Of a DNA stretch of 64,000 nucleotides, positions 25,447 through 62,700 are shown one piece after another; the first letter of the stretch is position 1; the number at the start of each line of letters is the position of its first letter. Under the pieces are notes generated by a model that was given only the letters and a program-made list of their open reading frames with translations, searched no databases and was not told the origin of the DNA. Both the position numbers and the translations under genes were made by a program. Source of the stretch: an uncultured Kordia sp. (GTDB taxonomy: Bacteria; Bacteroidota; Bacteroidia; Flavobacteriales; Flavobacteriaceae); assembly GCF_947489565.1 (NCBI RefSeq), contig NZ_CANLEA010000005.1, positions 248,001 through 312,000 on the forward strand, read 5' to 3'.

Positions 25447-25469
25447 ATAACACTTTAACGCTATAAACC

Positions 25470-25805: not shown

Positions 25806-25858
25806 AAACTTAAAATAAATATTCAAACATTATTAATTAAACTTAAAATTATAAAATT

Positions 25859-26215: not shown

Positions 26216-26226
26216 AATTTAGCATT

Positions 26227-26622: not shown

Positions 26623-26640
26623 TTATAAAAAACAAAAATT

Positions 26641-40900: not shown

Positions 40901-41241
40901 GCAAAGCATTAGAAAAACTGAAAATTTCATTACAAGCCAACATCGAATATGTAGCTCCAAAAAATGAAATAGAAGAAGCGCTTGCCGAAATATGGAAAGA
41001 AGTATTAGGCGTTGAAAAAGTAGGAGTAACCAATAACTTTTTTGAATTAGGAGGACATAGTTTATTGGCAATAACACTCATAAACGAAATCAATAAAAAG
41101 TTTGATAAGACCAACTTTCACATCCGAAACCTTTTTAAGAACAGTACCATTGAAAGTATGGCAGCATTAATTGCGATTGCAGAACGAAAAACCATGACAG
41201 ACGATTTAGAAGATGAAGACACAGAAAACTTTGTCATTTAA
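37936..41241 (+). CDS. NRPS 1: docking-C-A-T, one module
   Basis: An 1101-aa non-ribosomal peptide synthetase. A TubC-like docking segment (1-50) is followed by a condensation domain (about 64-500) with an intact HHIIGDG at 192-198, an adenylation domain (about 515-1000) with YIIYTSGTTG at 656-665, and a carrier domain with the phosphopantetheine Ser1042 in LGGHSL. Specificity residues read by eye are D-L-Y-N-N-A-L-T-Y, close to a code I associate with alanine; this is a weak prediction. A condensation domain at the start means it either receives an upstream acyl or peptidyl group or is not the first module. No epimerase or terminal thioesterase is present. Confidence 0.93.
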   Translation: MDQLVNKLYQLGIRIEAKNGELQVKAPKNTLTPELIQEIKQQKEDLIAILGNPEIEIPKAPIQEYYPLTAAQKRIWILSQFEGGSKAYNIFGAFEMEGQLDMEALQKASKFLIERHESLRTKFIQKDGDIWQKILPVAEINFSVDVLPQTTDVTSVIAEFYETEFDLTQAPLLKAQVIPVTPTKHILVFAIHHIIGDGWSMEIFSGELIKSYNDIHQNQEITLPELTIQYKDYAFWMESDVMQEKLNKQEAYWLSEFSGELPKMTLPTYQPRPSINGYEGDVTHNRFSIAWSDAVKKMAEKEEATLFMMLMAGINGILYRYAGNSDIILGVPTSGRGHSAVKNQIGLYLNTLAIRTQLNNEMSLRELIKLQKQKLIDAYTNEMYPFDQLVEKLKLERDASRTALFDVMVVLQNQQNMTLQESKSFEGITINPYNAVTPKVSLFDMTFSFSEYNGHIELALEYNTDLYEETFVKQLIQHFENLLADGIKNPKTSVDTLQILSENEQQNLLTNNTVKLAYNATQTITDMFETSVEKYSSHTALIVDDSSLTYAEMNAEINQFAQYLAETFKIKKGDFVGVKLERNQQLPIAILAVMKLGATYVPIDTAYPEERIQYIQNDSNCTCVIDQKVYEDFLPEQAKFSTENLQVNIDAAAVAYIIYTSGTTGKPKGVMITHKNAMAMLAWAKEEFKTTNFDTAYAVTSHCFDLSIYELFFPLSVGKTIRLLPNALAILDTVAKDKNILINTVPSSMRSLLESNMSFDNVRMVNLAGEAFPVDIAEKLLKTNAEIRNLYGPSEDTTYSTVYKLDAAKSYKNSIPIGKPIANTTAYILDKNLQLVPTGVVGRLYITGDGVAKGYLGKDAITQEKFIENPFKKGTLMYDTGDIASWQENGNIMFLGREDNQVKIRGYRIELEEIETAIRASSEHISQVVVLVKKYQQHDTLVAYYTEKEAVDTNIIKSNLAETLPSYMIPNHIEALDEIPLTPNGKIDRKALEKLKISLQANIEYVAPKNEIEEALAEIWKEVLGVEKVGVTNNFFELGGHSLLAITLINEINKKFDKTNFHIRNLFKNSTIESMAALIAIAERKTMTDDLEDEDTENFVI

Positions 41242-44300: not shown

Positions 44301-47300
44301 ATATGATTCCGCAAAGCTATATAGCGCTAGAAAAAATGCCATTAAATCATAATGGAAAAGTCGATATTAAAAAATTACCAATTCCTGCTTTACAGGAAAA
44401 TACTACTGATAGAAGCAACGCAAAAGCACCTGAGGATGAAATAGGAATACAACTTGCTAACATTTGGAAAGGCATTCTTGATGTAGATTTTGTGTCGGTT
44501 GATGATGACTTTTTTGCGCTTGGAGGACAAAGTCTAAAAATTATGCACCTAAGTGGTCAAATAAACGGAGTTTTCAATCAAACACTTGCGTACAAAGACT
44601 TATTTCTTAACTCTAAATTTTCAGATCAAGCAAAATTAATCAATACAGCATTGGCTGAAGAAAAAGATAACTTCACAAACGTTCCAGAAAGCGGGCCGTA
44701 TGATCCATTTCCTTTGACCAATTTGCAAATGGCTTACTATGTTGGTAGGGAAGATGGACTCGAATTATCAACGTCTTCGCATATCTTATTGGAAAATCAA
44801 TTATTAGATTTGGATTTGGATCGCTTCCAAGATTCCTTAACCAAAGTCATAAAACGTCATGAAGCATTGCGTACGATTTATGATACGGAAGGAAAACAAC
44901 GCGTGCTTCCTTTTGAAGATTCAATGACGAAAGCGTTCGAATTTATTGATCTTTCTCAAGAAGACAATCAGTTTGAAAAACTAGAAGAAGCTAGAAAAAA
45001 AATCTTTGAACAAAGATTGCATCTAGAAATTTGGCCATGCTTTAAAATCGTAGTACTTCAATTAAAAGAAGAATTTCACTTATTGGCACTTGTAGATGCT
45101 ATTGTAGCAGATAACAGCTCACTAAACATCATTGTAGAAGATTTTCAACGCTTTTACAAAGGAGAAGACTTGGCGCCGCTCAACTTTACCTTCAAACAAT
45201 ACATAGAAGAATTAGAAAAAAAGAAACAATCTTCAGCATTTACAGAAGCGCAAAACTACTGGGAATCGAGAATAGAAGACTTGCCTTTAGGACCGCAACT
45301 TACGTTAAAAACAAAAGCGTCAGAAATAAAAAGTCCTACATATAGCAATCATTTTCACCCTTTTCCTCCAGGCAGTTGGGAAAAACTAAAAAACATCGGA
45401 TTAAAACATAAAGTATCACCAACAATACTACTAATAACTGCGTTTTCAGAAACATTGGTAAAATGGACTTCCAATCCTAACTTTTTACTAAATCTTACGT
45501 TATTTAACAGATTACCTTTTCATCCAGATGTGATGAAAGTAGTGGGAGATTTTACAGATTTATTACTATTAGAAGTTCATCAAAATTCGTCAAAATCATT
45601 CATTGAAAAAGCAGTTGCCTTAAATCAGCAGTTCTTAAATGATATGAACCACAATCTTATCAGTGGAGTTGAAATCAATAAAGAATTGGCAAAAAGAGAA
45701 GGACTTCTAGGAACTTTAGTAACGCCTGTAGTTGTGACAAGTATACTAGAAGATGGAGGTACTGAAGACGAGCAAGCGGAAGTATACAAAGTACTTACAA
45801 ATCCAGATAGAAAAGAAGATTTTGTACGAACGTCTCAGGTTTGGCTTGATCACCAATTAATCTTAGTACAAGGTTTACTTTGTATCAATTGGACGGTTGT
45901 AAAAGAATTGTTCCCAGCAGGAATGATTGAAGACATGTTTACAGATTACATCAGTAGACTACAATACCTTTTAGAACTTACGAATACAGCTAGTTTTGAA
46001 GACACCTTACCAGCACATCAACTCACTCAACTTGAAGCCTATAATAGTACCGAAAATAAATCATTACTAGAAGATGAAAATCTAATAGATGGCTTTTTAG
46101 CGCAAGTAGCAAAAAATCCTTCCAATGAAGCGCTAAAGCAAGGAGACAAAAGCTTTTCATACAAAGAATTAGACGAGCTATCAGATAAAGTAGCGATATG
46201 GCTTCAAACGAAAAAATTACCCAAAGAAACACTTGTAGCCATTGTTTCAGAAAAAAGTTGGAAACAAATTGTTGCTGTTTTGGGAATACTAAAAGCAGGA
46301 GGCGCTTATTTACCTATTTCGAGTTCGTTGCCAGTAAAACGAATCAATCATATTATAGAAGACGGACAGGCAACATGCGTGCTTACAGACGGAAATATAG
46401 AAACACATACTTTTCATGATTCGTTGCATGTTTTTGAAATTACGGAAGATAATATTGCAAACGTAGAAGGAGAACGAAAACCGATCAAAAGCAATCAGCA
46501 TGATGTAGCCTATGTAATATACACATCAGGAACTACAGGGAATCCAAAAGGTGTTATCATAAATCACAAAGGGGCTGTAAACACCAATCGCGATATCAAT
46601 CTCAAAATCAATCTTTCCAGTGATGATGTTGTTTTAGGTGTATCATCGCTAAGTTTCGATTTATCTGTGTACGATATTTTTGGAACATTCCGAGAAGGTG
46701 CAAAACTCGTATTACCTCCGTATTCCAAATATCCTGATCCACAAATTTGGAAAGAGCTTGTGCTTACAGAAGGTGTCACTGTTTGGAATTCTACTCCAGC
46801 ATTGGCAGAAATATTTGAAAAATCAATTGCATTAGAAAACAGCAATATCAAAGAAAACTTAACGCTAAGATGCTACTTATTAAGTGGCGATTGGATTCCG
46901 GTTTTACTTCCATCACAATTAAAAGCTTATGGAACTAAAGCACCAGAAGTGTATAGCTTAGGTGGAGCTACCGAAGCTTCTATTTGGTCCATATTTCACA
47001 AAACGGATGGTAGCGAAATCAACATGACAAGCATACCATACGGAAAACCATTGCAAAACCAAAAAATGTATGTGCTCGATACGCAATTAATGCCATGTCC
47101 ATTATGGGTTGAAGGAGATATATACATTGGTGGAGAAGGTTTATCATTAGGATATTGGAATGATAGCGTGAAAACAAATGCAGCCTTTATCACACATCCA
47201 ATTTGGGGAGATCGATTATACAGAACAGGAGATCGTGGACGATTTACAGACGATTTAAATATCGAATTCTTAGGGCGAAAAGATACGCAGATCAAGATCA

Positions 47301-47881
47301 ACGGATACCGTGTTGAAATTGGTGAAATTGAAAACGTATTGAACAAACATGAAGAAATACAAAAATGTGTAGTCAACGCGATTGTTTCTGACTCAAAAGA
47401 AAAAATATTGGTTTGTTACTACACAGCAAACAAAAACATACAAGACAGTACCATTACAACATACCTAAAAGAGTATTTGCCACACTACATGGTTCCGCAG
47501 TATTTCATTAAAATGGAAGCGATTCCTGTAACGTCAAATGGTAAAATAGACAGATCAAAGCTTCCGATTCCAGATATAACAGCAGAAGAAATGGAAAGTC
47601 TTCAACAAGCAGAAACTGCAACCGAAATCACCTTGGAAACCATTTGGAAACAAATTTTAGGAAGAGATGAAATTGGAATGAATCAAAGCTTTTTTGAAGT
47701 TGGAGGCGATAGCTTAAAAGCACTTAGAGTACTGATTGAAATAGAAAAAGAATTTTCTGTTAGAATAAACCTAGAGAAACTATTTTCAACACCTACAATA
47801 GGATTTCTCTCCAAAGAAATAGATCGAGAAGTATGGCTTTCTATGGAAGATGAAAATAGTACTAATGAGATTTCAATTTAA
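41366..47881 (+). CDS. NRPS 2: docking-C-A-T-Cy-A(Cys)-T, two modules
   Basis: A 2171-aa NRPS. Docking segment 1-50; condensation domain with HHIISDG at 197-203; first adenylation domain with YVIYTSGSTG at 656, of unassigned specificity (about D-I-F-D-F-G-T-I-F); carrier Ser1056. The next domain starts PFPLTNLQMAYYVGR and has D1244-AIVA-D1249-NS-S1252, the DxxxxDxxS of heterocyclization domains. The second adenylation domain (YVIYTSGTTG at 1716) has D-L-Y-N-L-S-L-I-W, the classic cysteine code; carrier Ser2116 follows. This module should insert Cys and cyclise it to a thiazoline. No oxidase domain is present. The stop overlaps the next start by one base. Confidence 0.94.
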   Translation: MKLFIKLNELGVQLTVENGELNLKAPRGVLTPDIISEIKTHKSDLIALLSYSDESIPKAEKQTSYPLSSAQKRMWLLYQLDKKSSVYNIVSYISLKGNYNVEALKLALHETVKKHETLRTVFKVNEENEVRQYILDASQFNSSLDFKDFSNVDEDTNWSVYLDGKLNSYFDLENGPLFHAHFLKIAADEYVFCLNMHHIISDGRSIEVFKEDVFTFYETLTHQQEIESKPLGIQYKDYVIWQETQKEKTAYKEDKSYWLNQFKTTPSIIDLPNQKKRPKIKSFNGRLLNYNFSKETSNQTFQFFNEKKVTLFVGLLTALKSCIHLYTSEEDIVLGTPVAGRTHEDLKDQIGCYINTLAIRNEVSPNTSFNELLLSVKETMLESLVHQSYAFDELLHELNLQRDKARNPLFDIFISLENEDVSQNKNIEPGSKYNAAFDEINMACKFDIEFMFFHSENSLSLGVNYNSDVYQKETILGFIKHFDALLNSVVNQPDVRIAEIDLFSDDQKSELQLKGTKHTISRKFGDLFSTIVEKHTKDIAVKHKDKELSYLELDEQSNQFAQYLRTEKKISKGDLVAVMLTKDEFLITAMLAIWKLGAVYVPVDTESPSSRISFIMEDCNSKLLLNDELKNGYLAQETAQDKNPLASEINDDDLAYVIYTSGSTGKPKGVQVTHANLNHFANFLHEYYQDFDKVVQPLIASHAFDISLFQIVSPLLSGGTVIVLQKEQMQNISSVIEIIKESTVIDTVPAFYELIVSHINEQNLTGFSNIKKVFIGGDKVSDAILKKLSKVFASAEISNTYGPTEGTIFCLEKKYPAGTIDETTAGSIIGSPIMNAEICILNSYDKLVPKGVTGEICIAGLGVSKGYLNRPDLTQEKFISHPYQADKKLYKTGDLGRLLDNGLIEFAGRNDNQVKIRGYRIELGEIEHCLLKITKAKEVLVRLVKTEQDTEILVAYIVGNTDIAIDAISEKLAVELPDYMIPQSYIALEKMPLNHNGKVDIKKLPIPALQENTTDRSNAKAPEDEIGIQLANIWKGILDVDFVSVDDDFFALGGQSLKIMHLSGQINGVFNQTLAYKDLFLNSKFSDQAKLINTALAEEKDNFTNVPESGPYDPFPLTNLQMAYYVGREDGLELSTSSHILLENQLLDLDLDRFQDSLTKVIKRHEALRTIYDTEGKQRVLPFEDSMTKAFEFIDLSQEDNQFEKLEEARKKIFEQRLHLEIWPCFKIVVLQLKEEFHLLALVDAIVADNSSLNIIVEDFQRFYKGEDLAPLNFTFKQYIEELEKKKQSSAFTEAQNYWESRIEDLPLGPQLTLKTKASEIKSPTYSNHFHPFPPGSWEKLKNIGLKHKVSPTILLITAFSETLVKWTSNPNFLLNLTLFNRLPFHPDVMKVVGDFTDLLLLEVHQNSSKSFIEKAVALNQQFLNDMNHNLISGVEINKELAKREGLLGTLVTPVVVTSILEDGGTEDEQAEVYKVLTNPDRKEDFVRTSQVWLDHQLILVQGLLCINWTVVKELFPAGMIEDMFTDYISRLQYLLELTNTASFEDTLPAHQLTQLEAYNSTENKSLLEDENLIDGFLAQVAKNPSNEALKQGDKSFSYKELDELSDKVAIWLQTKKLPKETLVAIVSEKSWKQIVAVLGILKAGGAYLPISSSLPVKRINHIIEDGQATCVLTDGNIETHTFHDSLHVFEITEDNIANVEGERKPIKSNQHDVAYVIYTSGTTGNPKGVIINHKGAVNTNRDINLKINLSSDDVVLGVSSLSFDLSVYDIFGTFREGAKLVLPPYSKYPDPQIWKELVLTEGVTVWNSTPALAEIFEKSIALENSNIKENLTLRCYLLSGDWIPVLLPSQLKAYGTKAPEVYSLGGATEASIWSIFHKTDGSEINMTSIPYGKPLQNQKMYVLDTQLMPCPLWVEGDIYIGGEGLSLGYWNDSVKTNAAFITHPIWGDRLYRTGDRGRFTDDLNIEFLGRKDTQIKINGYRVEIGEIENVLNKHEEIQKCVVNAIVSDSKEKILVCYYTANKNIQDSTITTYLKEYLPHYMVPQYFIKMEAIPVTSNGKIDRSKLPIPDITAEEMESLQQAETATEITLETIWKQILGRDEIGMNQSFFEVGGDSLKALRVLIEIEKEFSVRINLEKLFSTPTIGFLSKEIDREVWLSMEDENSTNEISI

Positions 47882-50800
47882 TGACAATGGAGGTAAAAAA
47901 TATATTAGACATTCTTATTGAAGAAAAGGTTCAAATAAGGCTTAGTGACGATAAAAACCTAAAATTATCATCTCAAAATGGTAAAATTGGCACTAAGGTC
48001 ATTTCATTAATAAAAGAGAATAAACCTGCAATATTAGCCTATTTAGAAGCCAGACAAGAACAATCTAACAAAGCAGCGGTTCAAATTGCTAGAGCTCCTA
48101 AAATGGACTATTATCCAGTATCCGCAGATCAATACAGAATGTGGGTATTAAGTCAATTTGAAGAAGCTTCTGTAGCATACAATATATCCAACGGTGTCAT
48201 CATTAAAGGTGATATTGATATTGCTACATTAAAGGAAGCCAACAAAAGGTTATTTGTAGACAACGAAATTTTAAGAACCACGTTTTTTCAAAATGAAAAA
48301 GGGCAACTTCTTCAGGAAATACATGATGTCTCTAAAGTTTCAACCAATGTCATCTATCAAGATGTTTCCAACGCAACTGATGGTTTAACAGAAGCCAAAA
48401 ATAGTATCAAAGCCAATTGTCAAATTCCAATGGAATTTACAACGGGACCAATGTATAAACTGTTTTGTTTTAAAATAAGTGAAGACAGTTTTTTCATCGC
48501 TATGATCATACATCACATCATAAGTGATGGTTGGTCGCTTCAAATATTGAATGCTGAATTACTTCAGAATTATGACGATATTAAAAATGGAATACAGACG
48601 CAAAACACTCCAGAAAAATTTGGCTACAAAGACTTTGCCTATTGGCAGAATGAACAATTAAAACGATCAAAAAGTAAATCGTTAGACTTTTGGAAAGAAA
48701 AATTAGCGGGCGAATTACCAGTTTTAAACTTAGTCAACCCAACTCAAAGACCCAATGTAAAAACCTATGTTGGTAAATATATTGAGAACGATTTTACTCC
48801 CGAACTATCAAAGAATTTAAAAACATTCTTTGGCAAGCAGCAAAGTACCATGTTTATCGGAATGATGGCAGCGGTCAATGTACTTTTAAATAAATATTCA
48901 GGAGATAAAGATATCATAGTAGGAACGCCTGTAGCGGGAAGAGAAATTGAAGAATTCAGAAATACAGTTGGATTATTTGCCAATAGTGTACCGATTAGAC
49001 TTCAAGTGGATACACAAATGTCTTTTCTTGATTTCTTAGGCAATACCAGAAAGGAAGTTGTAGAAGCGTTTGATCATCAAAACTTTCCGTTTGAACAAAT
49101 GGTAGAATTGGTTGATGAAAAAAGAGATATTTCTCGAGCAGCTATTTTTGATGTATTGGTAGTAATGCAGAACATGGATTTTACGCCTGATGCAGTACCT
49201 AATTCTCAACCAAAAGAAACCAACGTACTTTCGGTTGAAACGGTTGATATAGACTCAAAAGTGTCTCTGTTCGATTTAACTTGGACTTTTACCGAAAAAG
49301 AAAACGGTATCGGTTTATTGTTGCGATATAATACAGATCTATTTGATGAAACGTATGTAAACAATCTCATCAATCATTTTGTAAATCTACTTGAAGAAAT
49401 AGCCGAAAATCCTAACAAATCAATCGCAAGTCTAAACATATTAAGTAAAGAAGAGCGATCAAAAATACTAGAATTAAGTAGCAATAAAGGAGAAGATGTA
49501 GCCAATACACATATCTGGAAACAGATAGAAAAAAACATTCTCAACAATTCCGCAAACACAGCATTTGTATTTGAAGATAAACACTATTCTTTCAAAGAAT
49601 TAGACGAACACACAAAACGTTTAGCAGTCTATTTAAAAGAAAAATATGAGTTAACTACCAGTGATCGTTTAGTGCTACAATTACCAAAAAATGATGCCCT
49701 ATTGCTATCTATTTTGGCTTGTATTAGAATTGGTGTGACTTACATGCCAATACCTGAAAACTCACCTGAAAAAAGAGTACATTTTATTTTAGAAGATTCA
49801 CAAGCCAAAGGACTTGTAAATACCACTGCTTTAGAAGATTTTGAAAACTATAAAGCTGAACATACGTTTATTCAAGAAGAATTAGATCCAACTCAAGCAC
49901 TTTACGGAATTTATACTTCAGGTTCTACAGGAACTCCAAAAGCAGTGATTGTATCAAGTATTGCGGTAAATAACTTCTTAGAAGGTCTAGAAAAAGATGT
50001 CTATCCACAAAAAAACAACGGATTAAAAGTAGCGCAAATGGCATCGTTTTCATTTGACGCTTCTGTGCAACAATTTTTATACTCATTAACAAGAGGTTGT
50101 GAGTTGCACATCATTTCAGACGATGTAAAATCAAACATTCCTGATCTTTGGGAATATATTATTGAGCGTAAAATTCAAGTTACAGACGGAACACATTCGC
50201 TATATCTTGAAATGTCTAAAAACTTCCCTGAAAACATTCAAGAAAACGTACTTGAAAGAATCATTTTAGGAGGAGAAAGCTTTAAAACAACGACTGCATC
50301 AACACTATTTTCTACCATAAAACAAGCGGCAAATTTTGAAATCGTTAATGTATATGGACCAACGGAATGTACTGTGAATGCTACATTCTACAAAGTAACA
50401 TCTGAAGAAGATATTCCTGAAAATGCAATTGATTTGCCAATAGGGAAACCTTCGCTAAACTACGGCGTTTACATATTAGATGAAAACAAAGAACCTTTAC
50501 CAATTGGTTTTGAAGGTGACTTATACATAAGCGGACCAAGTTTAGCAATTGGGTATTTGAATAGGGAAAAACTGACCAATGAAAGTTTTACAAATGCACT
50601 AGGAATCAGAATGTATCGCACAGGCGATTTGGCAAAATGGGATGCTAACGGATTATTACATTTTATTGGTAGAAAAGACAATCAAGTCAAAATACGCGGA
50701 TATCGTATAGAATTAGGAGAAATTGAAAGCAAACTACTTGAATATGATGGCGTAACACAAGCAGTTGTTATTGCCAAAGACATGGAAAGTGGCGACAAAG

Positions 50801-53800
50801 AATTGTTAGCTTTTATCAAGGTGAATACGATCATTGACAACAATGAAGTCCGAAACTTTTTAAAAGGAGAACTAACAGATTATATGTTGCCTTCTTCGAT
50901 TACACAAGTAGATAATTTTGAAATGAATTCGAGCGGAAAGCTCAACACAAAAGCACTCTTATCTCTTGATGTACATCATACCACAAATGAACAAGTATAT
51001 CTGCCACCAATTAATGCAGAACAAGAAGCAATACAAAGCATTTGGCATGAAGTTTTAGGACACGAACCAATCGGAATTGACATAGATTTCTTTGCCGTTG
51101 GCGGAAATAGCTTAAAAGCGATGCGATTGATAAGTGAATACCACAAAAAATTCAATTCAAAACTAGCGTTAAAAGATATTTTTGAGCACAATACCATAGA
51201 AAAACATCAGCAATTAATGATCAATTCTAGCGAAGATCAATATGCAGAAATTCCTAAAATTGGTACGCAAGAAAATTACATTTTATCCGATGCGCAACGA
51301 AGAATTTGGGTATTAAGTCAGTTTCAAGAAGGACTCGTAGCTTACAATATGCCTTCTTTCATTGAATTGGAAGGAAAATACGATACAAACATCTTATTGC
51401 AATCTATACATGCGGTTGTAGAAAAACATGAAATATTACGTACTGTTTTTAAACCCAACGAAAATGATGAAATCAGACAATGGATTCTTCCAGCTTATGA
51501 CGTAGACATTCCAATTTCAGTAGAAAACGTTGCTCATATTGACAATTCGTACAATCATATCTCAGCGTACATCAAAGAAGATTCGTTCAAGCCTTTTGAT
51601 ATAGAAAATGGACCGTTACTAAGAGGGAAAATCTTCTGTATTGCCGACGATCAATTTTTAATTTACTTCAACATGCATCATCTTGTGGGAGATGCGTGGT
51701 CAAATGAAGTACTAAAGAAAGAGATTCTAAAAATATACAACACACTCATTGCAAACGAAGCCTTATCAACGGAATCATTGCGAATTCAGTATAAAGATTA
51801 TGCAGCATGGCAATCCAATCAATTAAAAAGTGGAAACTGGGACATTCACAAAAAATATTGGCTAAATGAACTAAAAGGCGAATTGCCATTAATCGATTTA
51901 CCATCAGAAAAAGTAAGACCGTCCATCAAAACATACAATGGAAACAGTCTACAATTAGTATTTAATACGGAAGAAGCCGCGCGTTTAAATGAATTCTCAA
52001 AAAAATATCAAGGGAGTTTATTCTCAACATTACTATCGGTTTTCCACATTCTCATACATAGATACTCAGGACAAAAAGATCAAATCATTGGAGTTCCAAT
52101 AGCAGGTAGATCACATGCCGATTTGGAAGATCAAATTGGTGTATTTATCAATATGTTATCTATCCGAAATGAAATCAAAACAGATTTGAGTTTTGTTGAA
52201 TTTTACAAAAATGTTACCGAAAATCTACTAGAAGCGTATCAAAATCAAGTATATCCTTTTGACCGACTTGTGGAAGAATTAGATATTCCTAGAGATACAA
52301 GTCGTAGTCCTATTTTTGACATTTCAATCAGTTTGCAAAACGTATCGTTAGGAGCAAATCCAACAGAAGAAGACTATCATTTCAATACTGAAGTTGATGA
52401 TGTTTTGGTACTTGGCGCACACAAATCTAAAAATGATTTAGAAGTTGCTTTTGAGGAAACGAATGAGGAAATTATATGCAATGTCATTTACAATACCAAT
52501 GTGTATGAAGAGGAAATGATAACGCAATTTATGAAGCATTACAGATTATTGGCTTCTGTATTAACAAGCGATCCAAGCATACAATTATCTGCTGCCGAAT
52601 TTTTAAACTCAAAAGACAAATCTACGTTACTAGATAAATTTAATGATACCGAATATGATTTGAATGAGGATGAAACGACTATTTCATTATTCAAAAACAT
52701 CTTGGTAGAAAAAGGAAGTGAATTAGCTGTACTATATGAAGGCGAAGAATTAACGTATGAGGAGTTAGATACTTTATCAAATCAATTTGCATACTATTTA
52801 AAAGCAGAATTTCACATTACTGAAGGAGATGTGGTTGGTGTCATGCTTCCTCGAAGTCAGTGGTTGCTAGTCACCATTCTCGGAATTATGAAAACGGGCG
52901 CAATCTATCTTCCGATCTCTTTAGAATATCCTCAAAAAAGAACAGATTACATTTTAGAAGATAGCGGATGTAAAGCATGCATAAACCAAGCACACTTACA
53001 CACATTTACAGAGAATTTAGCAAAGTATGGCAAAAGTGAAGTTGCTTACGAAGTTACCGCGAACCAATTAGCATATATCATTTATACATCTGGTACAACG
53101 GGACAACCAAAAGGAGTGATGATTGAACACAAAAGTTTAGTCAACTTCATTATGGCAATGCGCAATAGTTTGGATTTAGATGCTTCCGATCATTTATTGG
53201 CGCTTACATCAACTTCGTTTGATATCTCTATATTGGAACTTTTATACACCGTATGTTCAGGAATCTTAGTAACTGTAGCAAGTTCGAACACAGATTTTAG
53301 CATTTTTGACACCTATTTACAACAACATAAAAACAAAACAACAGATTTCAGTGTATTCTTTTTCTCCAGTCAAAAGGTAGATCAGAATAATAAATACGAT
53401 TTGTTATTAAAAACAGTCAAATATGCTGATCAAAATGATTTTAGCGCTGTTTGGTTGCCAGAAAGACATTTCCATGAATTTGGAGGAATATTTCCTGCTC
53501 CGTCGGTTGTTGGTGCTTCCTTAGCTACGATTACGAATACCATTAACATTCGTTCTGGTAGTGTGGTTTTACCATTACATGATACAATTCGAGTGGCAGA
53601 AGAATGGTCTGTGGTTGACAATTTATCTAACGGAAGAGTTTCATTATCAATTGCTTCTGGTTGGACGCCAAATGACTTCGTACTACGACCTGATGATTTT
53701 TCAAACAGAAAAGTCAAAATGTTTCAGCAAATAGCAGAATTAAGAAAACTCTGGAAAGGAGAAACCATCAAAAGAATCAATGGTGTAGGAGAAGAAATTG

Positions 53801-55497
53801 ACGTTGAGGTATTTCCAAAGCCAATTCAAAAAGAAATCCCAATATGGGTAACAACTGGTGGAAATCCGGAAACTTACGCGGAAGCTGGTAAAATAGGAGC
53901 GAACATATTAACGCATCTTTTGGGACAAACGCTAGATCAATTACAAGAGAACATAAAAGTCTACAAAAAAGCGCTTTCAGAAAATGGACACTCGGTAAAA
54001 GATGCCAAGATTTCACTGATGCTACACACATATATTGGTGAAGATATTGATGAGGTGAAAGAATTGGTACGCGAACCCTTCAAATCGTATCTAAAATCTA
54101 GTTTAGGACTTATTGGAAACATGCTAAAGGAATTTAGAGATGGTGAAAATACAAACCTACATGAAGATGATTTAAACAATTTGGTCGATTTAGCTTTTGA
54201 AAGATATTGGCAAGATTCTGCTTTGATTGGAACCCAAGAAAGTGTTGCAAACATGCTTCAAAAAATACAACTCATTGGAGTTAATGAAATCGCTTGCTTG
54301 GTTGATTTTGGACTAGATAAAGATGTCGTAGTCAATGGTTTGGAACAGTTAAATGAAGTTCGAAAGAAAAACAAATCATTCAAAGCCAACGACACAAAAC
54401 CAACGCGACCAATTACCGCGATACAAACAACACCTTCTTTCTTAAAAATTCTAAAAAGTGAAGAGCATTCGATAGACTTTCTAAAATCCTTAAAGCATAT
54501 CATCATTGGTGGAGAAGCATTGAGCGATAATTTAAAGAATGAAGTCAAGGAACTCACAAACGCAGAAATTTACAACATGTACGGACCTACGGAAACTACG
54601 ATTTGGTCGGTTATGGAAAAAATGTCTGAATCTCCTGTAGTGCTAGGAAAACCAATAGCTAACACACAAATTTATGTGTTAAACGAAGATTTAAATGTGT
54701 GTCCAATTGGTGTTGCAGGTGAAATTTATATTGGAGGAAAAGGTGTGGCCAGAGGTTACATAAACAAAGAATCTCTAACAAAAGAAAAATTCATCCCAAG
54801 TCCTTTTGATCCTAACAAAAAAGAAAGACTCTACAAAACTGGCGATTTGGCAAAATGGAATGCCAACGGAACGCTTGTATTTTTAGGTAGAAAGGATTTT
54901 CAAGTGAAAGTTCGCGGACATCGAATTGAACTATCTGCAATAGAAAAAACCTTAACAGACTTTCAAGGTATTGAGGAAGCTGTTGTCATTATCAATGAGC
55001 TAAATGGTGAAAAAGAAATTGCAGCATTTTATACAGGAAATGAAAGAATTGCAATTGTAGATTTAAGGAATTACATCGCTGAGATTCTTCCAAACTACAT
55101 GACGCCTTCGTATTTCATTTATCTAAACGAATTCCCATTAAACTTTAATGGTAAAATAGATAAAAAAGCACTTCTAAATTTCAAGGAAGAACAAACACTG
55201 AGTACTACAAACTATGTAGCACCAAATACAGAAGCAGAAAAAGCATTAGCCGAAATATGGAAAACAATACTAGATACCGAAAAAATAGGAATTCACGATG
55301 ACTTCTTTGAGTTAGGTGGACACAGTTTAAAAGCCCTCAAATTACTAAGTGAAATACGTAAAACATTCAACGTCAATTTAAGTTTAGAAAAAATATTTAA
55401 TGAAACTACCATAAACAAACTCGCATTATACATTGAAGCCATGAAATTGGATACTCATGTAGAATCTAGCGAAGAAGATGGAGAACTCATTTTTTAA
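47881..55497 (+). CDS. NRPS 3: docking-C-A-T-C-A(monooxygenase insert)-T, two modules
   Basis: A 2538-aa NRPS. Docking segment about 1-58; condensation HHIISDG at 211; adenylation domain (YGIYTSGSTG at 675) with residues D-A-Q-D-I-G-V-V-N, near the glutamine code; carrier Ser1077. The second condensation domain has HHLVGDA at 1266-1272, with Ala for the final Gly. The second adenylation domain (YIIYTSGTTG at 1732) is interrupted at about residues 1815-2165 by a luciferase-like flavin monooxygenase (WLPERHFHEFGG, GSVVLPLH, EEWSVVDNLSNGRVSLS, NILTHLLGQ). Its code D-I-L-Q-I-G-M-I-W is close to glycine. Carrier Ser2482. The insert should oxidise the bound residue, as in MtaG of myxothiazol synthesis. 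Confidence 0.94.
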   Translation: MTMEVKNILDILIEEKVQIRLSDDKNLKLSSQNGKIGTKVISLIKENKPAILAYLEARQEQSNKAAVQIARAPKMDYYPVSADQYRMWVLSQFEEASVAYNISNGVIIKGDIDIATLKEANKRLFVDNEILRTTFFQNEKGQLLQEIHDVSKVSTNVIYQDVSNATDGLTEAKNSIKANCQIPMEFTTGPMYKLFCFKISEDSFFIAMIIHHIISDGWSLQILNAELLQNYDDIKNGIQTQNTPEKFGYKDFAYWQNEQLKRSKSKSLDFWKEKLAGELPVLNLVNPTQRPNVKTYVGKYIENDFTPELSKNLKTFFGKQQSTMFIGMMAAVNVLLNKYSGDKDIIVGTPVAGREIEEFRNTVGLFANSVPIRLQVDTQMSFLDFLGNTRKEVVEAFDHQNFPFEQMVELVDEKRDISRAAIFDVLVVMQNMDFTPDAVPNSQPKETNVLSVETVDIDSKVSLFDLTWTFTEKENGIGLLLRYNTDLFDETYVNNLINHFVNLLEEIAENPNKSIASLNILSKEERSKILELSSNKGEDVANTHIWKQIEKNILNNSANTAFVFEDKHYSFKELDEHTKRLAVYLKEKYELTTSDRLVLQLPKNDALLLSILACIRIGVTYMPIPENSPEKRVHFILEDSQAKGLVNTTALEDFENYKAEHTFIQEELDPTQALYGIYTSGSTGTPKAVIVSSIAVNNFLEGLEKDVYPQKNNGLKVAQMASFSFDASVQQFLYSLTRGCELHIISDDVKSNIPDLWEYIIERKIQVTDGTHSLYLEMSKNFPENIQENVLERIILGGESFKTTTASTLFSTIKQAANFEIVNVYGPTECTVNATFYKVTSEEDIPENAIDLPIGKPSLNYGVYILDENKEPLPIGFEGDLYISGPSLAIGYLNREKLTNESFTNALGIRMYRTGDLAKWDANGLLHFIGRKDNQVKIRGYRIELGEIESKLLEYDGVTQAVVIAKDMESGDKELLAFIKVNTIIDNNEVRNFLKGELTDYMLPSSITQVDNFEMNSSGKLNTKALLSLDVHHTTNEQVYLPPINAEQEAIQSIWHEVLGHEPIGIDIDFFAVGGNSLKAMRLISEYHKKFNSKLALKDIFEHNTIEKHQQLMINSSEDQYAEIPKIGTQENYILSDAQRRIWVLSQFQEGLVAYNMPSFIELEGKYDTNILLQSIHAVVEKHEILRTVFKPNENDEIRQWILPAYDVDIPISVENVAHIDNSYNHISAYIKEDSFKPFDIENGPLLRGKIFCIADDQFLIYFNMHHLVGDAWSNEVLKKEILKIYNTLIANEALSTESLRIQYKDYAAWQSNQLKSGNWDIHKKYWLNELKGELPLIDLPSEKVRPSIKTYNGNSLQLVFNTEEAARLNEFSKKYQGSLFSTLLSVFHILIHRYSGQKDQIIGVPIAGRSHADLEDQIGVFINMLSIRNEIKTDLSFVEFYKNVTENLLEAYQNQVYPFDRLVEELDIPRDTSRSPIFDISISLQNVSLGANPTEEDYHFNTEVDDVLVLGAHKSKNDLEVAFEETNEEIICNVIYNTNVYEEEMITQFMKHYRLLASVLTSDPSIQLSAAEFLNSKDKSTLLDKFNDTEYDLNEDETTISLFKNILVEKGSELAVLYEGEELTYEELDTLSNQFAYYLKAEFHITEGDVVGVMLPRSQWLLVTILGIMKTGAIYLPISLEYPQKRTDYILEDSGCKACINQAHLHTFTENLAKYGKSEVAYEVTANQLAYIIYTSGTTGQPKGVMIEHKSLVNFIMAMRNSLDLDASDHLLALTSTSFDISILELLYTVCSGILVTVASSNTDFSIFDTYLQQHKNKTTDFSVFFFSSQKVDQNNKYDLLLKTVKYADQNDFSAVWLPERHFHEFGGIFPAPSVVGASLATITNTINIRSGSVVLPLHDTIRVAEEWSVVDNLSNGRVSLSIASGWTPNDFVLRPDDFSNRKVKMFQQIAELRKLWKGETIKRINGVGEEIDVEVFPKPIQKEIPIWVTTGGNPETYAEAGKIGANILTHLLGQTLDQLQENIKVYKKALSENGHSVKDAKISLMLHTYIGEDIDEVKELVREPFKSYLKSSLGLIGNMLKEFRDGENTNLHEDDLNNLVDLAFERYWQDSALIGTQESVANMLQKIQLIGVNEIACLVDFGLDKDVVVNGLEQLNEVRKKNKSFKANDTKPTRPITAIQTTPSFLKILKSEEHSIDFLKSLKHIIIGGEALSDNLKNEVKELTNAEIYNMYGPTETTIWSVMEKMSESPVVLGKPIANTQIYVLNEDLNVCPIGVAGEIYIGGKGVARGYINKESLTKEKFIPSPFDPNKKERLYKTGDLAKWNANGTLVFLGRKDFQVKVRGHRIELSAIEKTLTDFQGIEEAVVIINELNGEKEIAAFYTGNERIAIVDLRNYIAEILPNYMTPSYFIYLNEFPLNFNGKIDKKALLNFKEEQTLSTTNYVAPNTEAEKALAEIWKTILDTEKIGIHDDFFELGGHSLKALKLLSEIRKTFNVNLSLEKIFNETTINKLALYIEAMKLDTHVESSEEDGELIF

Positions 55498-55508
55498 AAA
55501 AATAACAT

Positions 55509-56744
55509 ATGATAATGATATCAAAAGAATCTAATGTAAACGGATATGCAAAATCTTTTCCAACGGTATTTGAAAAAGCCCAAAAGGACACCTTGTCAAA
55601 TACTGATGGAAAAGTATATATCGACTTTTTTAGCGGAGCAGGTGCATTAAATTATGGACATAACAATCCATTAATAAAGCAAGACTTACTTGAGTTTTTT
55701 GAGTACAGTTCGCCTGTTCATTGTTTGGACATGGACAGTGTTGTGAAATTAAAGTTTCTTGACTGTTTTGAAAATTATATTTTAAAACCTAGAAACCTTG
55801 ATTATAAAATTCAATTTCCAAGTCCGTCAGGAACCAATGCAGTGGAGGCAGCTATAAAACTTGCAAGGAAATTCACAAAAAGATCAAAAGTAATTGCTTT
55901 TACAAACTCTTTTCACGGAATGACAGCTACAGCACTGGCAGTTTCTGGAAGTCAAGAACATAGACATACAGACATACCAAGTCAGGATATAATCTTTTTT
56001 CCTCACGAAGGATTTATGGGACCAAACATCAATTCGTTAGAATTCTTGTCAAAAATGATAGAGACAAAAGGTAGTGGCGTTAATGCTCCTGCGGCTATCA
56101 TTGTGGAAACCATTCAAGCAGAAGGCGGTGTAAATGTAGCAAGTATTGAATGGTTACAAACACTATCAAGTATCTGTAAAAAGCACGATATCTTTTTAAT
56201 TGTAGATGATATTCAAGTAGGTTGCGGTAGAACCGGAGACTTTTTCAGCTTCGAAAAAGCAAACATATATCCAGACATTGTTCTCTTATCAAAATCAATC
56301 AGTGGTTACGGATTGCCGCTATCAATAGTGCTTTTAAAGCCAGCGTTTGATATTTGGTCTCCAGGAGAACACAATGGTACGTTTAGAGCAAATAACTTAT
56401 CGTTAGCTGCTGCGACTAGTGCGCTCAATCATTATTGGAAAGATGACGCTTTGCAAACTCAAGTCAAAACATTAGAAAAAATAATAACGGACAAGCTACA
56501 ACACTTAAAAAATAGCTCAACGAAAGTGTTGAAAATTAGCGGACGCGGATTAATCTGGGGAATACACCTAGAAAATGGTGAAATGGCGGAAAATGTTTCA
56601 AAAATAGCATTCAACAAAGGATTGATCATTGAAACCTGTGGAAATCATGGACAAGTATTAAAAATATTGCCACCACTAGTGATAGAACCATCTCATTTAA
56701 CACAAGGTATTGACATACTAATTGAAGTAATAAACTCTCTTTAA
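55509..56744 (+). CDS. Diaminobutyrate-2-oxoglutarate aminotransferase-like enzyme (EctB/Dat type)
   Basis: A 411-aa class III PLP aminotransferase. It has SPSGTNAVEAAIKLARK, FHGMTATALAVSGS, the cofactor-binding Asp in VDDIQVGCGRTG and the Schiff-base Lys in LLSKSISGYGLPLS. These match the EctB/Dat family, which makes L-2,4-diaminobutyrate from aspartate semialdehyde. Located between NRPS 3 and NRPS 4 with gaps of 11 and 45 bases, it should supply diaminobutyrate as a building block. The start could be ATG 55509 or 55515. No other ectoine genes are present. Confidence 0.88.
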   Translation: MIMISKESNVNGYAKSFPTVFEKAQKDTLSNTDGKVYIDFFSGAGALNYGHNNPLIKQDLLEFFEYSSPVHCLDMDSVVKLKFLDCFENYILKPRNLDYKIQFPSPSGTNAVEAAIKLARKFTKRSKVIAFTNSFHGMTATALAVSGSQEHRHTDIPSQDIIFFPHEGFMGPNINSLEFLSKMIETKGSGVNAPAAIIVETIQAEGGVNVASIEWLQTLSSICKKHDIFLIVDDIQVGCGRTGDFFSFEKANIYPDIVLLSKSISGYGLPLSIVLLKPAFDIWSPGEHNGTFRANNLSLAAATSALNHYWKDDALQTQVKTLEKIITDKLQHLKNSSTKVLKISGRGLIWGIHLENGEMAENVSKIAFNKGLIIETCGNHGQVLKILPPLVIEPSHLTQGIDILIEVINSL

Positions 56745-56789: not shown

Positions 56790-59700
56790 ATGAACGAATT
56801 ATATACTTTCATTATTAGCCTAAAACAAAAAGGCATACATATCGATGAAACTAATGGGAATCTGAAGGTTTTTGGGAAAGTCGCGAATCTTACTGATGAA
56901 GACAAAACAAAAATTAGAGAATATAAATCAGACCTCATTGATTTTTGTCTCCAACGTCAAGTATCCGACGGAGACAACAGCGCTTTCATTCCTGTTATTG
57001 AAGAAGCAGAAGACTATGAAGTATCTTCTTCTCAATACAGACTTTGGATTTTATGTCAACTAGAAGAAGCATCTATATCCTATAACATGCCCGAACATTT
57101 GATGCTTCATGAAACTATTGATTTTGAAAAGCTCGAAGAAGCCATCAAACAAACAATCAATCGACATGAAGTATTACGAACGGTATTTAAAGTAAATGAT
57201 TTAGGGAAATTAAGGCAACGTGTTATTGCCTTTAACGATTTTGATTTCTCAGTCAAAACAATCGATTATACAAAAGATAGTGATGGAGAAACCAAAGCTA
57301 TACAATACATAAGTGGTAATTCATTCCAACCTTTCGATTTAGAAAAAGGGCCATTGGTTAGAGTTAGTATCATCAAATTAGCCAATTCCAAAACAATTCT
57401 ATACACCAATACGCATCACATTATTGGAGATGGTTGGTCTAACAATGTATTAATGTCAGATGTTCTGGCTTTTTACAAAGCTTTTGCCGAAAATGAACCT
57501 GTAGCATTGCCTAAATTAAAACTGCAATACAAAGATTATTCTGCATGGCAACAGGTGAAAATTTCTGGACAAAAATACGAGCAAGCAAAAAAATATTTTG
57601 CTGAATACTTAGCGGGAGATTTACCGTTACTAAACGTTCCATCTAGCTATGCAAGACCTGTCGTAAAAACACACAAAGGAAAAAAACTAGGCTTTTCTAT
57701 AAAACCTGAAATAGCTGATAAACTCAAAAACTATCATCTGTCTAAAGGAGGAAGTTTATTCATGGCATTGCTGTCGTCAATGAAAGTCTTGTTACACAGA
57801 TATACTGGTCAAAAAGACATCATTGTTGGAAGTCCAGTTTCAGGAAGAGACCATGAAGATCTTGAAAATCAAATAGGTTTTTATGTAAACTCAATCGTAT
57901 TAAGAAATAACATCAGCGGAAGCGATAGTTTCAATGAAGTATATGAAAAAGTTAAAAAAACAACCTTAAAGGCATATCAATTTCAAGACTATCCTTTTGA
58001 TCATTTAGTAGAAGATTTATCGCTAAAAAGAGATGTAAGCCGAAGCGCCATATTTGACATTATGATTACGCTTCAAAGCAGCAGTCAAGAAACCATGTTG
58101 GATGCAGCATATAAAAATGATGATGTACACGATTTAGGCGATTGTATTAGTCGATTCGATTTAGAAATTGACTTCGAAGAAAAAGAAGGTTATATATGGA
58201 TGACCGTACTTTTTAATGCTGATATCTACAGCGATGCAGACATTGAAAACCTTATGCGACACTATTCTAACCTGCTAGAAGGTTTATTAGAAAAGTCGGA
58301 AACACCAATAGGAGAAGCTAAATACACGACTGTTGAAGAAGAAAATAAACTGTTACAGTTCAATAAAACGGAAGTAGCAACAGATGGAAATGAAACGTAT
58401 GTAGATCGATTTTACGAACAAGTTCAAAATTCGCCAAATGCCATCGCGATTCAGGACAAGGATAGAAACATTACGTACAAAGAACTTGACCAGCGATCAA
58501 ATCAATTGGCTCATTTTCTAATGTCTTGTGAACATTCAGGGAAAGAAAACATCTTAGGAATCATTACAGATCGAAGTTATGAATTAATTCTATCCATCAT
58601 TGCAGCATTCAAGGCAGGTTACAGTTATGTTGCTATTGATGCAAACTATCCTGAAGAACGCATAAAACCAATCATCAGTGATGCAGAAATACATGTTGTT
58701 TGTACTTCAAAAAATCATGTTGGACTTGTCTCTAAATTACAAATTGAATGTACAAACCTTACACATTTTGTATGTTTAGATAGTGAAGATGTATATGCCG
58801 AATATGAAAATAAAGATCACGAGTACAAAGAACTCTGGAATTATGTTGGAGAAACATCAAAAGACGATGTAGAAGGCGGTGGTTGGATAAGCAGTTACAC
58901 GGGAGAACCATTCTCTACACTAGAAATGGACGAATATGGTGAAAGTTTCTACAACTCTATCAAACCATACTTACACAAAGAAGCACGTGTCTTAGAAATT
59001 GGTTGCGCATCAGGAATTACACTAAAAAAGGTAGCTCCACATGTAAAAGAATTTGTAGGAGTTGATATCTCAGAAAGTACCATTAGAAAGCAGAAGAAAA
59101 AATTAGCTTCAATTGAAAATGTATCACTTGCGTGTCTGAGCGCGTCTGAAATAGACATGCTAGACAAAGGAACATTTGATGTTGTCATCATAAACAGTGT
59201 GGTACAAGATTTTGAAAGTCCAAACTATCTAAGAAATGTCATTGACAAAATTTCTGAAATCCTAAATCCATCAGGAGTAATTGCTATTGGTGATGTTATG
59301 GATGCAGCACTGAAAGACGACTTGTTAAAGAGTTTGCTAACTTTTAAACGTAACAATTTAGCAAATGACTATGTAACGAAAACTGATTTCTCATCCGAAT
59401 TATTCCTATCGAAAGCGTTCTTTAAGGACTTAGTAGCAGAAAACAATCATTTTACGTCTGTTGTTTTTGAAGAGAAAGATTTTACAGTGTCAAACGAGTT
59501 AACAGATTATCGATTTGACGCAATTTTAGTAGCAGGAACAGCAACTGAAACCAACATATCCAAACAAAAATTTCAATACGATGCACGTGTCTTAAACGTA
59601 CAGAGTGAAGAAGCGCCACAAAAAACAATTTCACCAAATGATACTGCGTATATCATATACACTTCAGGATCAACAGGAGTTCCAAAAGGGGTTTTACTAC

Positions 59701-62700
59701 ATCACAAAGGATTGCTGAATCACCTAGATTCAATGATTGAAGAATTGAATTTAACCCAAAATTCAAAAATCATTCAAAATGCATCTGTAACATTTGATAT
59801 TTCTGTGTGGCAATTGCTCAATGCATTATTGATTGGCGGAACTACCTTGATTTACGGAAGTGAACTTGTCAATGAACCAACGCGATTTATTGAAAAATTA
59901 CGAGACGATAAAGCGTCTATATTGCAAGTTGTACCAAGTTACTTATCTATCTTATTAGATGAAGCTAACCAGGGAGATTTTGATGGACTTGAATTCCTAT
60001 TAGTAACTGGAGAAGCGGTAAGTCAAGATATTTTAATACGATGGTTTGATGCATATCCAAACATCAAAGTAGTCAACGCATACGGACCAGCAGAAGCATC
60101 TGATGATGTAACCTTACACATCATGAGCAAAGCTCCAGAAAGTTACAATGTTCCTATTGGGAAGCCAATACGAAACATGAAAGTACATATACTTGATGAT
60201 TTCAATCAAAAATGTCCAATTGGCGTTATTGGAGAAATCTGTGTCAGCGGAATAGGAGTTGGAGACGGTTACCTAAACAATTCAGCACTAACTGCCGAAA
60301 AATTTGTCAGTGATCCGTTTGATGCTTCTCAGAAAATGTACAAAACGGGCGATCTTGGAAAATGGTCGTGGGATGGAGAACTCTTCTTTTTAGGAAGAAA
60401 AGATTTTCAAGTAAAAGTAAGAGGTCACAGAATTGAATTGGGCGAAATAGAAAGTAAAGTCAATCTATTTGTTGAAAAAGCGATCATTCTTGAAGAAGAA
60501 GGTGATTTAGTCGGATTTATCAAAAATAGTAACAAAGTCAACGTTCAAGAATTAGAATTGGCTTTAAATAACTATCTGCCAGACTATATGATTCCACGAA
60601 AGTGGAAGCAATTGGAAGTATTTCCGCTCTCGTCCAATGGAAAAATAGATAAGAAAAAATTATTTTGGGTAAACGAAGAAATTACCAATTATGTTGCTCC
60701 AAAAAACGAACGAGAAGAAAAAATTCAACTGATTTGGCAACGTGTGCTCAATCTTGAAAGTATAAGTATGCACAATGACTTTTTCCAACTTGGAGGTCAT
60801 AGTATCAAAGCAATGCGCTTAATTAGTGAATATCACAAGACGTTTGATATAAAATTACAATTAAAAGACATCTTTGCGAATACTACAGCAAGTGCCCATT
60901 CGGCATTACTCGAAATTGAAACTACAGAAAAATACAATGCCATCACACTGGCACCACAACTTGAAAATTATCCACTTTCTGACGGACAAAAAAGACTTTG
61001 GGTAATAAGTCAATTTAAAAACATGTCGCAAGCATACAATATGCCAGCACATGTATATTTAGATGGCGCACACGATGTTGCTATGTTACAAGAAGCTATA
61101 GGTAAAGTTGTAGCGCGTCATGAAGTGTTAAGAACAATCTTTAAAAATGACGTTGACGGAGAAGTAAAACAGTGGATTATTCCAACGGACAAATTCTCTT
61201 GGGAAATAGCTTTTGAAGATATTACTGCAATGGAATCGTCAGACGATTACGCACTCGAATATGTTAGAAAAGACAGTTTCATTCCGTTCGATTTCGTGAA
61301 TGGACCGTTATTCCGTGGTAAAATATTTAAGCACAGCGACACTAAATTTTCGTTATACTTCAACATACATCACATCATTGGCGATGGTTGGTCTGATGCT
61401 ACTTTATTTAGAGACATTTTGGCTTTTTACAAAGCTATTAGCAACAAACAAAAAGTAGCACTTGTTCCACTAAAACTAAACTATAAAGATTATGCTTATT
61501 GGCAACTAAACCAAATAAAAGAAGGAGTTTGGGACGCACATAAAGATTTTTGGCTGGAAACTTTTAAAGGTGAAATTCCACAATTAGAATTACCAATTCA
61601 AAAAACAAGACCATTAATAAAAACGACTAATGGAAAATGTTTGCGAATGATTATTCCGGCGAATACGATTGAAAATTTAGTAGAATTTTCGCGTGAAAAA
61701 TCCAGCAGTTTATTCATAGGACTTTTATCCGTTTGGCAAGTATTATTTCATAAATATTCTGGACAAGAAGAAGTTATTTTAGGTTCGCCAATTGCTGGAA
61801 GAGAACATCCCGATTTAGAAAATCAGATTGGTTTCTATGTAAACACACTCGCCCTAAAATCGACCTTAAACGAACAAGATACATTTTTAGACTTTTTCAA
61901 TAGAAATACAGCGCATGTATTAGAATGTTATGCACACCAAATGTATCCTTTTGATGGTTTGATCGAACTATTAAACATAAAGAAAAGTCCAAACAGAAAT
62001 GCACTTTTTGACGTTTTAATTACATTACAAAACACCGTAGAATCTAACGCAGATGCAGAATTAGCAAATATTGGACAGATTCAAGATTTAGGCTTCAAAA
62101 TGGTAAAACTTGATATAGAAGTCAATTTTGAAGAGCAAGGCGGATGCGTTATTCTAGATTTAGTATACAATACAGATGTGTACAGCGATTTTGCAATGAG
62201 AGAAATGCTTCACGGATATTTGAAAACGCTTGAAAAAGTAGTATCAGAACCAAAAACTGAAGTTTCAAAAATAGCTGTGGTTTCCTCTGAATGGAAAAGA
62301 AACTGCCTAGAAAACAAAGGACTTCAACAACAATTACCAGCTGAAAAAACGGCGATCGATCTGTTTTATGAAAATGTATCTAAATACCCAGACAATATTG
62401 CGGTTGTATTTGGAGATAAAAATGTAAGCTATAAAGAATTAGACATCATTTCAAACAAAATGTCTCATTGTTTACAGGCTACATACAATATAAAAGAAAC
62501 GGATGTTGTCGCTGTGTTGCTTGAAAAAAGCGATTGTAGCATTGTTACGATTCTAGCAATTTTAAAATTAAAAGCAATATATGTTCCGTTAGATACTACA
62601 AATCCTGAACGTAGACTCACTTCTATTGTCAATGAAGTCAATGCAAAACTAGTAGTGGTTGACACAGAAAACATGCAAAAGCTAAAAGATACTGCATGTG

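Follow-up and report, generated by a model that had tools for sequence, protein, structure and literature searches.

A glycine module with an embedded luciferase-like monooxygenase at an apparently internal position of a Kordia nonribosomal peptide synthetase

The DNA analyzed here, called the window throughout, is a stretch of 64,000 nucleotides (C5:248001-312000) from the 6.42-Mb genome of an uncultured Kordia sp. It carries several nonribosomal peptide synthetase (NRPS) genes, one of which, P0003, encodes a second module composed of a condensation (C), an adenylation (A) and a carrier (T) domain, with a luciferase-like monooxygenase (LLM) set in the A domain. Judged from the sequence, this module probably alpha-hydroxylates a peptidyl-glycine and hands the chain on to the synthetase P0005, with no release at this point. 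The module would pick glycine and join it to the peptide delivered by the upstream module; the embedded flavin mononucleotide (FMN)-dependent monooxygenase would then, presumably after N-acylation, hydroxylate the N-acyl-glycine on the carrier at its alpha carbon, a site suggested by the mta, mel and sol precedents. The alpha-hydroxyglycyl (carbinolamide) chain would pass from the P0003 tail to the C domain of P0005 and be extended there, with its hydroxyl group presumably surviving the elongation. Of these precedents, mta and mel stand for MtaG and MelG, which we take to be the names of the modules described for myxothiazol and melithiazol.

An LLM domain interrupts the A domain of the second P0003 module

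47881-55497, plus strand: NRPS gene P0003, C-A-T-C-A[LLM]-T, 2538 amino acids (domain profiles)
51277-52629, plus strand: C domain of the LLM module, HHLVGDA at 51676, residue 1266 (domain profiles and motif reading)
52687-53343, plus strand: A domain, stretch before the insert, to core motif A4 (domain call and motifs)
53344-54363, plus strand: LLM domain (TIGR04020) between A4 and A5 (profile match, phmmer, alignment and model)
54373-55176, plus strand: A domain, stretch after the insert, A5 to A10; code of the whole domain DILQIGMIWK
55213-55416, plus strand: T domain of the LLM module
55417-55494, plus strand: C-terminal tail of 26 amino acids ending in EEDGELIF, of the class preceding C-domain proteins; no thioesterase

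Between the A4 motif FDISILELL, which begins at residue 1780, and the A5-side motif ITAIQTTPS at residue 2178 lie 389 residues; the same gap measures 31 residues in another glycine-type A domain of the cluster, one that has no insert. The P0003 reading frame is open across the whole insert, and the A-domain motifs resume on its 3' side (NMYGPTETTIW, YKTGDLAKW, NGKIDKK). A first-pass annotation had described an LLM of about 350 residues interrupting the A domain after FDISILELL (53323-54375), and the core delimited here (53344-54363) confirms this.

The insert belongs to the TIGR04020 family of MupA/Atu3671 FMN-dependent LLMs: residues 1823-2161 match the entire profile (positions 1-341 of 341) with 478.7 bits (cut-off 244.45), and Pfam Bac_luciferase matches as well (E 6.3e-43). 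Among solved structures, the OX domain of PuwE (PDB 6KET) comes nearest to it in sequence (phmmer, 2.3e-115). An AlphaFold2 model built from 55 sequences has both the A domain and the insert well folded, with a mean predicted local distance difference test score of 87.3 and weaker stretches (block means of 52-65) at model residues 201-220, 261-270, 471-490 and 561-570. Foldseek retrieved A-domain structures with this model and, for the insert, 6KET with a template modeling score of 0.91 by target length and 48% identity. Across 96 LLMs, the window's own included, 58 alignment columns are at least 95% conserved, and the window LLM deviates at none of them; for the flavin site this is an indirect check, and it gives no sign of the loss of flavin-site residues that, according to the annotation, would speak against its interpretation.

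In samples of 395 genomes each from the phylum and the order, LLMs above the cut-off were found in 3 and 5, respectively; of the Kordia genomes searched, 4 of 11 have one. The window's genome is included each time. This genome carries a second LLM glycine module (G000:C4:9803-14227), which lies in another NRPS cluster and has an LLM of a different group.

The interrupted A domain has a glycine-type code

The code of the interrupted A domain, DILQIGMIWK, is one residue off DILQLGMIWK, which is shared by four glycine A domains with a monooxygenase (MOX) in a study in which all MOX modules sat in glycine domains (PMC12283262; statements on this and all other cited papers refer to excerpts of them). 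Glycine-type codes were found in each of 79 A domains with an LLM between A4 and A5 (8 from Bacteroidota genome stretches and 71 from 80 contig loci), whereas only 12 of the 141 other A domains of the same loci have one. The glycine-like code noticed in the first pass is thus borne out, and it suggests that the module selects glycine. Of the 79 LLM-bearing A domains, 78 fall in a single group (88 members, local support 88), so that the glycine rule partly reflects common descent. Repeated convergence is not supported as its origin, since the LLM-bearing A domains are nearly a single lineage.

Neighborhoods and phylogeny of related LLM modules

A scan of genome contigs with the window LLM as a single sequence gave no match; the loci were obtained with an alignment-based scan, from which the best 80 of 578 relatives were taken, a sample biased by similarity. 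Near-identical pairs (L075/L076, L092/L093, L117/L122) were kept in the counts, and L052, which is the same contig as G399, is counted once among the Bacteroidota modules below and twice among the 79 A domains and the 96 LLMs.

The 80 loci hold 73 A4-A5 LLM modules. In nine of them the polypeptide continues with a C domain; within 500 bp, the next gene encodes a protein starting with a C domain in six cases and one starting with a ketosynthase (KS) domain in 19. A fused thioesterase (Pfam) was found in five, no C or KS gene lies within 500 bp downstream of 31, and three were classed as cut, among them L067, in which a T domain follows a second insert and a KS gene is next.

All 18 A4-A5 LLM modules found in Bacteroidota are followed by elongation: in cis in three (G400, L047, L053), by a C-starting protein in seven and by a KS-starting protein in eight; none has a fused thioesterase. 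These 18 comprise the window, G000:C4, G400, G399, G397 (twice), G206 and G575, together with the contig loci L043, L046, L047, L048 (twice), L053, L055, L086, L101 and L115. In one G397 case, as in the window, a gene intervenes before the next megasynthase.

In the Kordia genome G400, the same module is followed by C-A-T in one polypeptide (C-A[LLM]-T-C-A-T), so that Kordia itself supplies an in-cis example of the internal arrangement. Its LLM has the highest identity to that of the window in the tree (60%), and a Fluviicola LLM joins the two in a group of three (support 96, quick method). On the LLM tree, the thioesterase-bearing relatives, five in number, require four changes, and none of these five falls in the window's group. 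The phylogeny of the insert, suggested in the first pass for comparison with MtaG-type and other embedded monooxygenases, places it, among the LLMs collected here, with the internal Kordia module and apart from the thioesterase-bearing relatives. Kordia LLM modules fall into at least two groups, one with the window, G400 and one G397 module (five rows, support 87) and one with G000:C4, G399 and the other G397 module (six rows, support 99).

Upstream of the 73 modules lies a C domain in 42 cases and a formyltransferase domain in 26. The latter was present in 26 of the 28 N-terminal regions scanned, the exceptions being L078 (cut at its 5' end) and L095 (93 residues, no match); four modules with a cut 5' end are unreadable upstream (L046, L077, L078, L079). 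Every readable upstream neighbor except that of L095 can N-acylate glycine. Free alpha-hydroxyglycine is unstable and would lose ammonia, and an N-acylating domain upstream therefore fits hydroxylation of an N-acyl-glycyl carrier.

Some of these relatives have features of their own. The formyltransferase-A[LLM]-T protein of 26 loci (e.g., L084, L075, L056) constitutes a loading module for N-formyl-glycine in which an LLM is embedded; its hosts are Rhodobacteraceae, Planctomycetota, Myxococcota, Cyanobacteria and others, with a KS gene next in seven and a polyketide synthase (PKS) gene upstream in others. If the carbinolamide breaks in such a module, a glyoxylyl starter would remain. L075 and L076 have near-identical LLMs and an equal layout of open reading frames (ORFs), with records naming Comamonas sp. 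KCTC 72670 and Myxococcus sp. CA023; one of these records may be mislabeled or contaminated. Two A domains (G206:C1:4324006-4329450 and G397:C1:984193-989655) carry an LLM at A4-A5 and a second insert of about 260 residues near A8-A9, which in G206 matches an FkbM-type methyltransferase (PF05050); the LLM A domains of L067, L082 and L120 also have a second insert, matching a methyltransferase seed. At G245:C12:180873-185384, the LLM lies between C and A, and the adjoining A domain does not have the usual glycine-type code.

C-terminal tails and the order of the proteins

55509-56744, plus strand: EctB-type diaminobutyrate transaminase between P0003 and P0005 (TIGR02407, 580.9 bits, cut-off 552.2)
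56790-57014, plus strand: N-terminal docking region of P0005, TubC_N-like (PF18563; 22.6 bits, E 1.1e-4, below the Pfam cut-off of 26)
57015-58352, plus strand: first C domain of P0005, HHIIGDG, presumed chain acceptor
58404-60662, plus strand: first A domain of P0005, with a methyltransferase interruption N-terminal of A4 near 58974-59315

P0003 has no thioesterase; it ends 26 residues after its T domain, and the next NRPS downstream is P0005. We compared the C-terminal tails of 58 neighboring megasynthase pairs from Bacteroidota stretches, seven Bacteroidota contig loci and a locus of Pseudoalteromonas. A C domain comes next after 36 of 37 short tails with a hydrophobic end, whereas longer tails, mostly acidic and helix-like, precede a KS domain in 15 of 21 pairs and a C domain in six. 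For these two classes, which were defined post hoc after the tails had been inspected, the association with the next domain has a Fisher p of 2.5e-8 (3.4e-8 when the window pair is left out). The only short-tail exception (316621-319968), which is followed by a KS protein, belongs to the same cluster as P0003.

The tail of P0005 is of the longer class and its next gene encodes a KS protein, an arrangement that speaks against a role of P0005 ahead of P0001; the first-pass idea that this fourth synthetase acts earlier in the assembly line has become less likely. As to the pairing of docking domains, put forward in the first pass as a way to order the four proteins, the P0003 tail belongs to the C-preceding class under the post hoc rule, and the docking-like region of P0005 scores below the Pfam cut-off.

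The HHxxxDA motif noted in the C domain of the LLM module in place of HHxxxDG is real (HHLVGDA). It was present in 6 of 77 C domains, including 2 of the 8 A4-A5 LLM modules examined, and was rejected as a marker of LLM modules; a ninth LLM module, that of G245, has HHxxxDS. No specialized acceptor C domain downstream of LLM modules was found in seven of ten in-cis cases (L044, L057 and L069 were omitted) and three next-protein cases. On the C-domain tree the seven in-cis rows need seven changes (shuffled mean 6.9) and the three next-protein rows need three; without common ancestry, these downstream domains give no sign of a specialized acceptor.

Internal hydroxyglycine and its alternatives

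Tail class, gene order and relatives point to an internal position of the P0003 LLM module, from which the chain would be elongated further. The first-pass annotation had left the choice between a chain end and an alpha-hydroxyglycine kept inside the peptide; the missing thioesterase, the tail class, the Kordia relative and the 18 Bacteroidota cases narrow it toward the internal residue and away from a chain end. Taken as a whole, that interpretation is partly supported: its observation of the interrupted glycine module and its comparison with MtaG and MelG hold and its either/or is narrowed, whereas HHxxxDA is not specific to LLM modules.

Several points weigh against an internal hydroxyglycine. 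The tail rule was drawn up with the tails in view, a transaminase gene separates P0003 from P0005, 31 of the 73 related modules have no C or KS gene close downstream, and the C domains after LLM modules do not group by descent. Most of the evidence for the glycine rule comes from a single lineage (the group of 88 holds 78 of the 79 A domains). Survival of the hydroxyl group is a presumption, and MtaG and MelG, whose inserts occupy the same site, have their hydroxylated glycine cleaved (PMC10204066, PMC11342130).

An alternative after the pattern of MtaG, which we regard as unlikely, is release at this module. The LLM would hydroxylate the glycine, the carbinolamide would break and the upstream peptide would leave as a C-terminal amide, while the separate thioesterase at 29927-30634 would clear the glyoxylyl stub and P0005 would serve another product or be fed differently. 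The insertion site and the glycine specificity are as described for MtaG and MelG, a stand-alone thioesterase is present in the cluster, and papers on Gly-MOX domains ascribe cleavage to them (PMC12283262, PMC11342130). However, P0003 has no fused thioesterase such as that of five of its 73 relatives, which do not group with the window; its tail is of the class preceding C-domain proteins, its highest-identity relative (Kordia G400) is internal in cis, and all 18 Bacteroidota modules are followed by elongation.

We consider it improbable that the LLM performs a different oxidation, be it N-hydroxylation, formation of an oxalyl (oxamide) unit from hydroxyglycine or a Baeyer-Villiger-type shortening of the chain. 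All 79 A4-A5 LLM A domains are of the glycine type, the described glycine cases act at the alpha carbon, and three PKS-embedded LLMs stand outside the A4-A5 rows (support 84).

A mere relic or scaffold role of the insert, with plain glycine in the product, is very improbable: unmodified glycine can pass, since solanimycin A reportedly arises when the step of the flavin-dependent monooxygenase (FMO) is skipped (PMC10204066), but the window LLM has no change in the 58 conserved columns, its predicted fold is confident and 4 of 11 Kordia genomes, the window's included, have an LLM above the cut-off.

An elaboration of internal hydroxylation, to which we attach very little weight, would make the hydroxyglycine a reactive intermediate that loses water to give an N-acyl-iminium at the glycine alpha carbon, to be trapped by the side-chain amine of the next residue. 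Our guess that the first A domain of P0005 loads 2,4-diaminobutyrate comes from the EctB-type gene lying between the NRPS genes; were it right, a seven-membered cyclic aminal could form in the backbone, and the LLM would be part of a two-residue ring-forming device. The code of this A domain (58404-60662), directly downstream of the EctB gene, reads DIWQLTADDK with position 278 corrected.

Gene context of the cluster

29927-30634, plus strand: stand-alone thioesterase (PF00975, E 4.1e-33)
37936-41241, plus strand: NRPS P0001, C-A-T, upstream of the LLM protein
41366-47881, plus strand: NRPS P0002, C-A-T-C-A-T

The second C domain of P0002 scores low and is cyclization-like by reading; the code of its second A domain, DLYNLSLIWK (position 278 corrected), is given as a cysteine code in PMC12283262. 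Further downstream follow a PKS with KS, acyltransferase, ketoreductase and T domains (KS-AT-KR-T), C-A-T proteins and a KS-T-reductase protein, as well as an ornithine-carbamoyltransferase-like gene below the cut-off. Two C-A-T genes (L009:5621-8968 and L009:12825-16124), the second with a tail of eight residues, flank a KS-T-reductase gene; their A domains are very similar and read as a recent duplication. SbnA- and SbnB-like 2,3-diaminopropionate genes, both below curated cut-offs, lie beside NRPS genes at L009:16140-18029. At L010:1157-5025 (G000:C5:332157-336025) we noticed a dihydroxyphenylglycine (Dpg) set in this marine flavobacterium, with DpgA over its cut-off and DpgB, DpgC and DpgD below theirs.

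Directly upstream of the NRPS genes, the window encodes an alpha/beta hydrolase (32388-34322) and a protein of 932 amino acids with weak ATP-grasp matches (34307-37105). A LanM-like protein (27584-29035) scores 343.9 bits against TIGR03897 (cut-off 304) over part of the model only, and is preceded by five consecutive ORFs of 110-133 amino acids (25114-27042), possibly precursor peptides. Among the papers listed in searches of an open-access library, none was recognized as treating this cluster.

Comparison with known systems

The literature on glycine-embedded monooxygenase domains deals mostly with chain cleavage and amide formation, solanimycin excepted (PMC10204066, PMC11342130, PMC12283262). 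In the myxothiazol and melithiazol systems, the insert sits at a4-a5 of a glycine A domain, the hydroxylated residue is cleaved to leave an amide, and a thioesterase comes next (PMC10204066, PMC11342130). Compared by their published descriptions, MtaG and MelG, which the first pass had named as counterparts, share with the P0003 module a glycine A domain (here by its code only) and a monooxygenase at the a4-a5 site; they differ in the terminal part, being followed by a thioesterase and yielding a C-terminal amide, whereas P0003 has no thioesterase and another NRPS comes next. In our similarity-biased sample the thioesterase-ended arrangement is a minority for A4-A5 inserts (5 of 73, against 34 followed by elongation and 31 undecidable from their neighbors).

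Solanimycin B retains an internal alpha-hydroxyglycine that is assigned to a Gly-FMO module (PMC10204066). This module, SolF module 4, resembles that of P0003 in pairing glycine with a flavin monooxygenase, apparently in both cases within the assembly line, but the SolF insert is located at a8-a9, and the three A8-A9 LLMs of our tree form a separate group (support 93). The Gly-MOx of crz-like clusters of Serratia and Pseudomonas is likewise embedded in a glycine A domain, but belongs to another pathway and is thought to yield oxidized or truncated linear dipeptides (PMC11342130). No characterized internal a4-a5 glycine-monooxygenase module was found in the excerpts of the literature searched.

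The OX domain of PuwE (6KET) is of the same family and fold, with 48% identity in the structural alignment, but in PuwE it is located between modules of the PKS and NRPS types and has been assigned to a 3-amino-2-hydroxy acyl chain (PMC4219810). FbnE of fabrubactin, from a siderophore pathway, is a flavin-dependent monooxygenase proposed to act in the formation of alpha-hydroxycarboxylates (PMC12971057). Its substrate differs from that of the window LLM. We presume that FbnE is a member of this LLM family.

The architecture as such is already known from MtaG, MelG and the crz-like Gly-MOx and is common, and the P0003 module is an unexceptional example of a widespread type. Should the internal reading be right, many clusters might carry hydroxyglycine internally, and this residue is rare and reactive; the P0003 module joins the a4-a5 site of MtaG and MelG to what is apparently an internal position.
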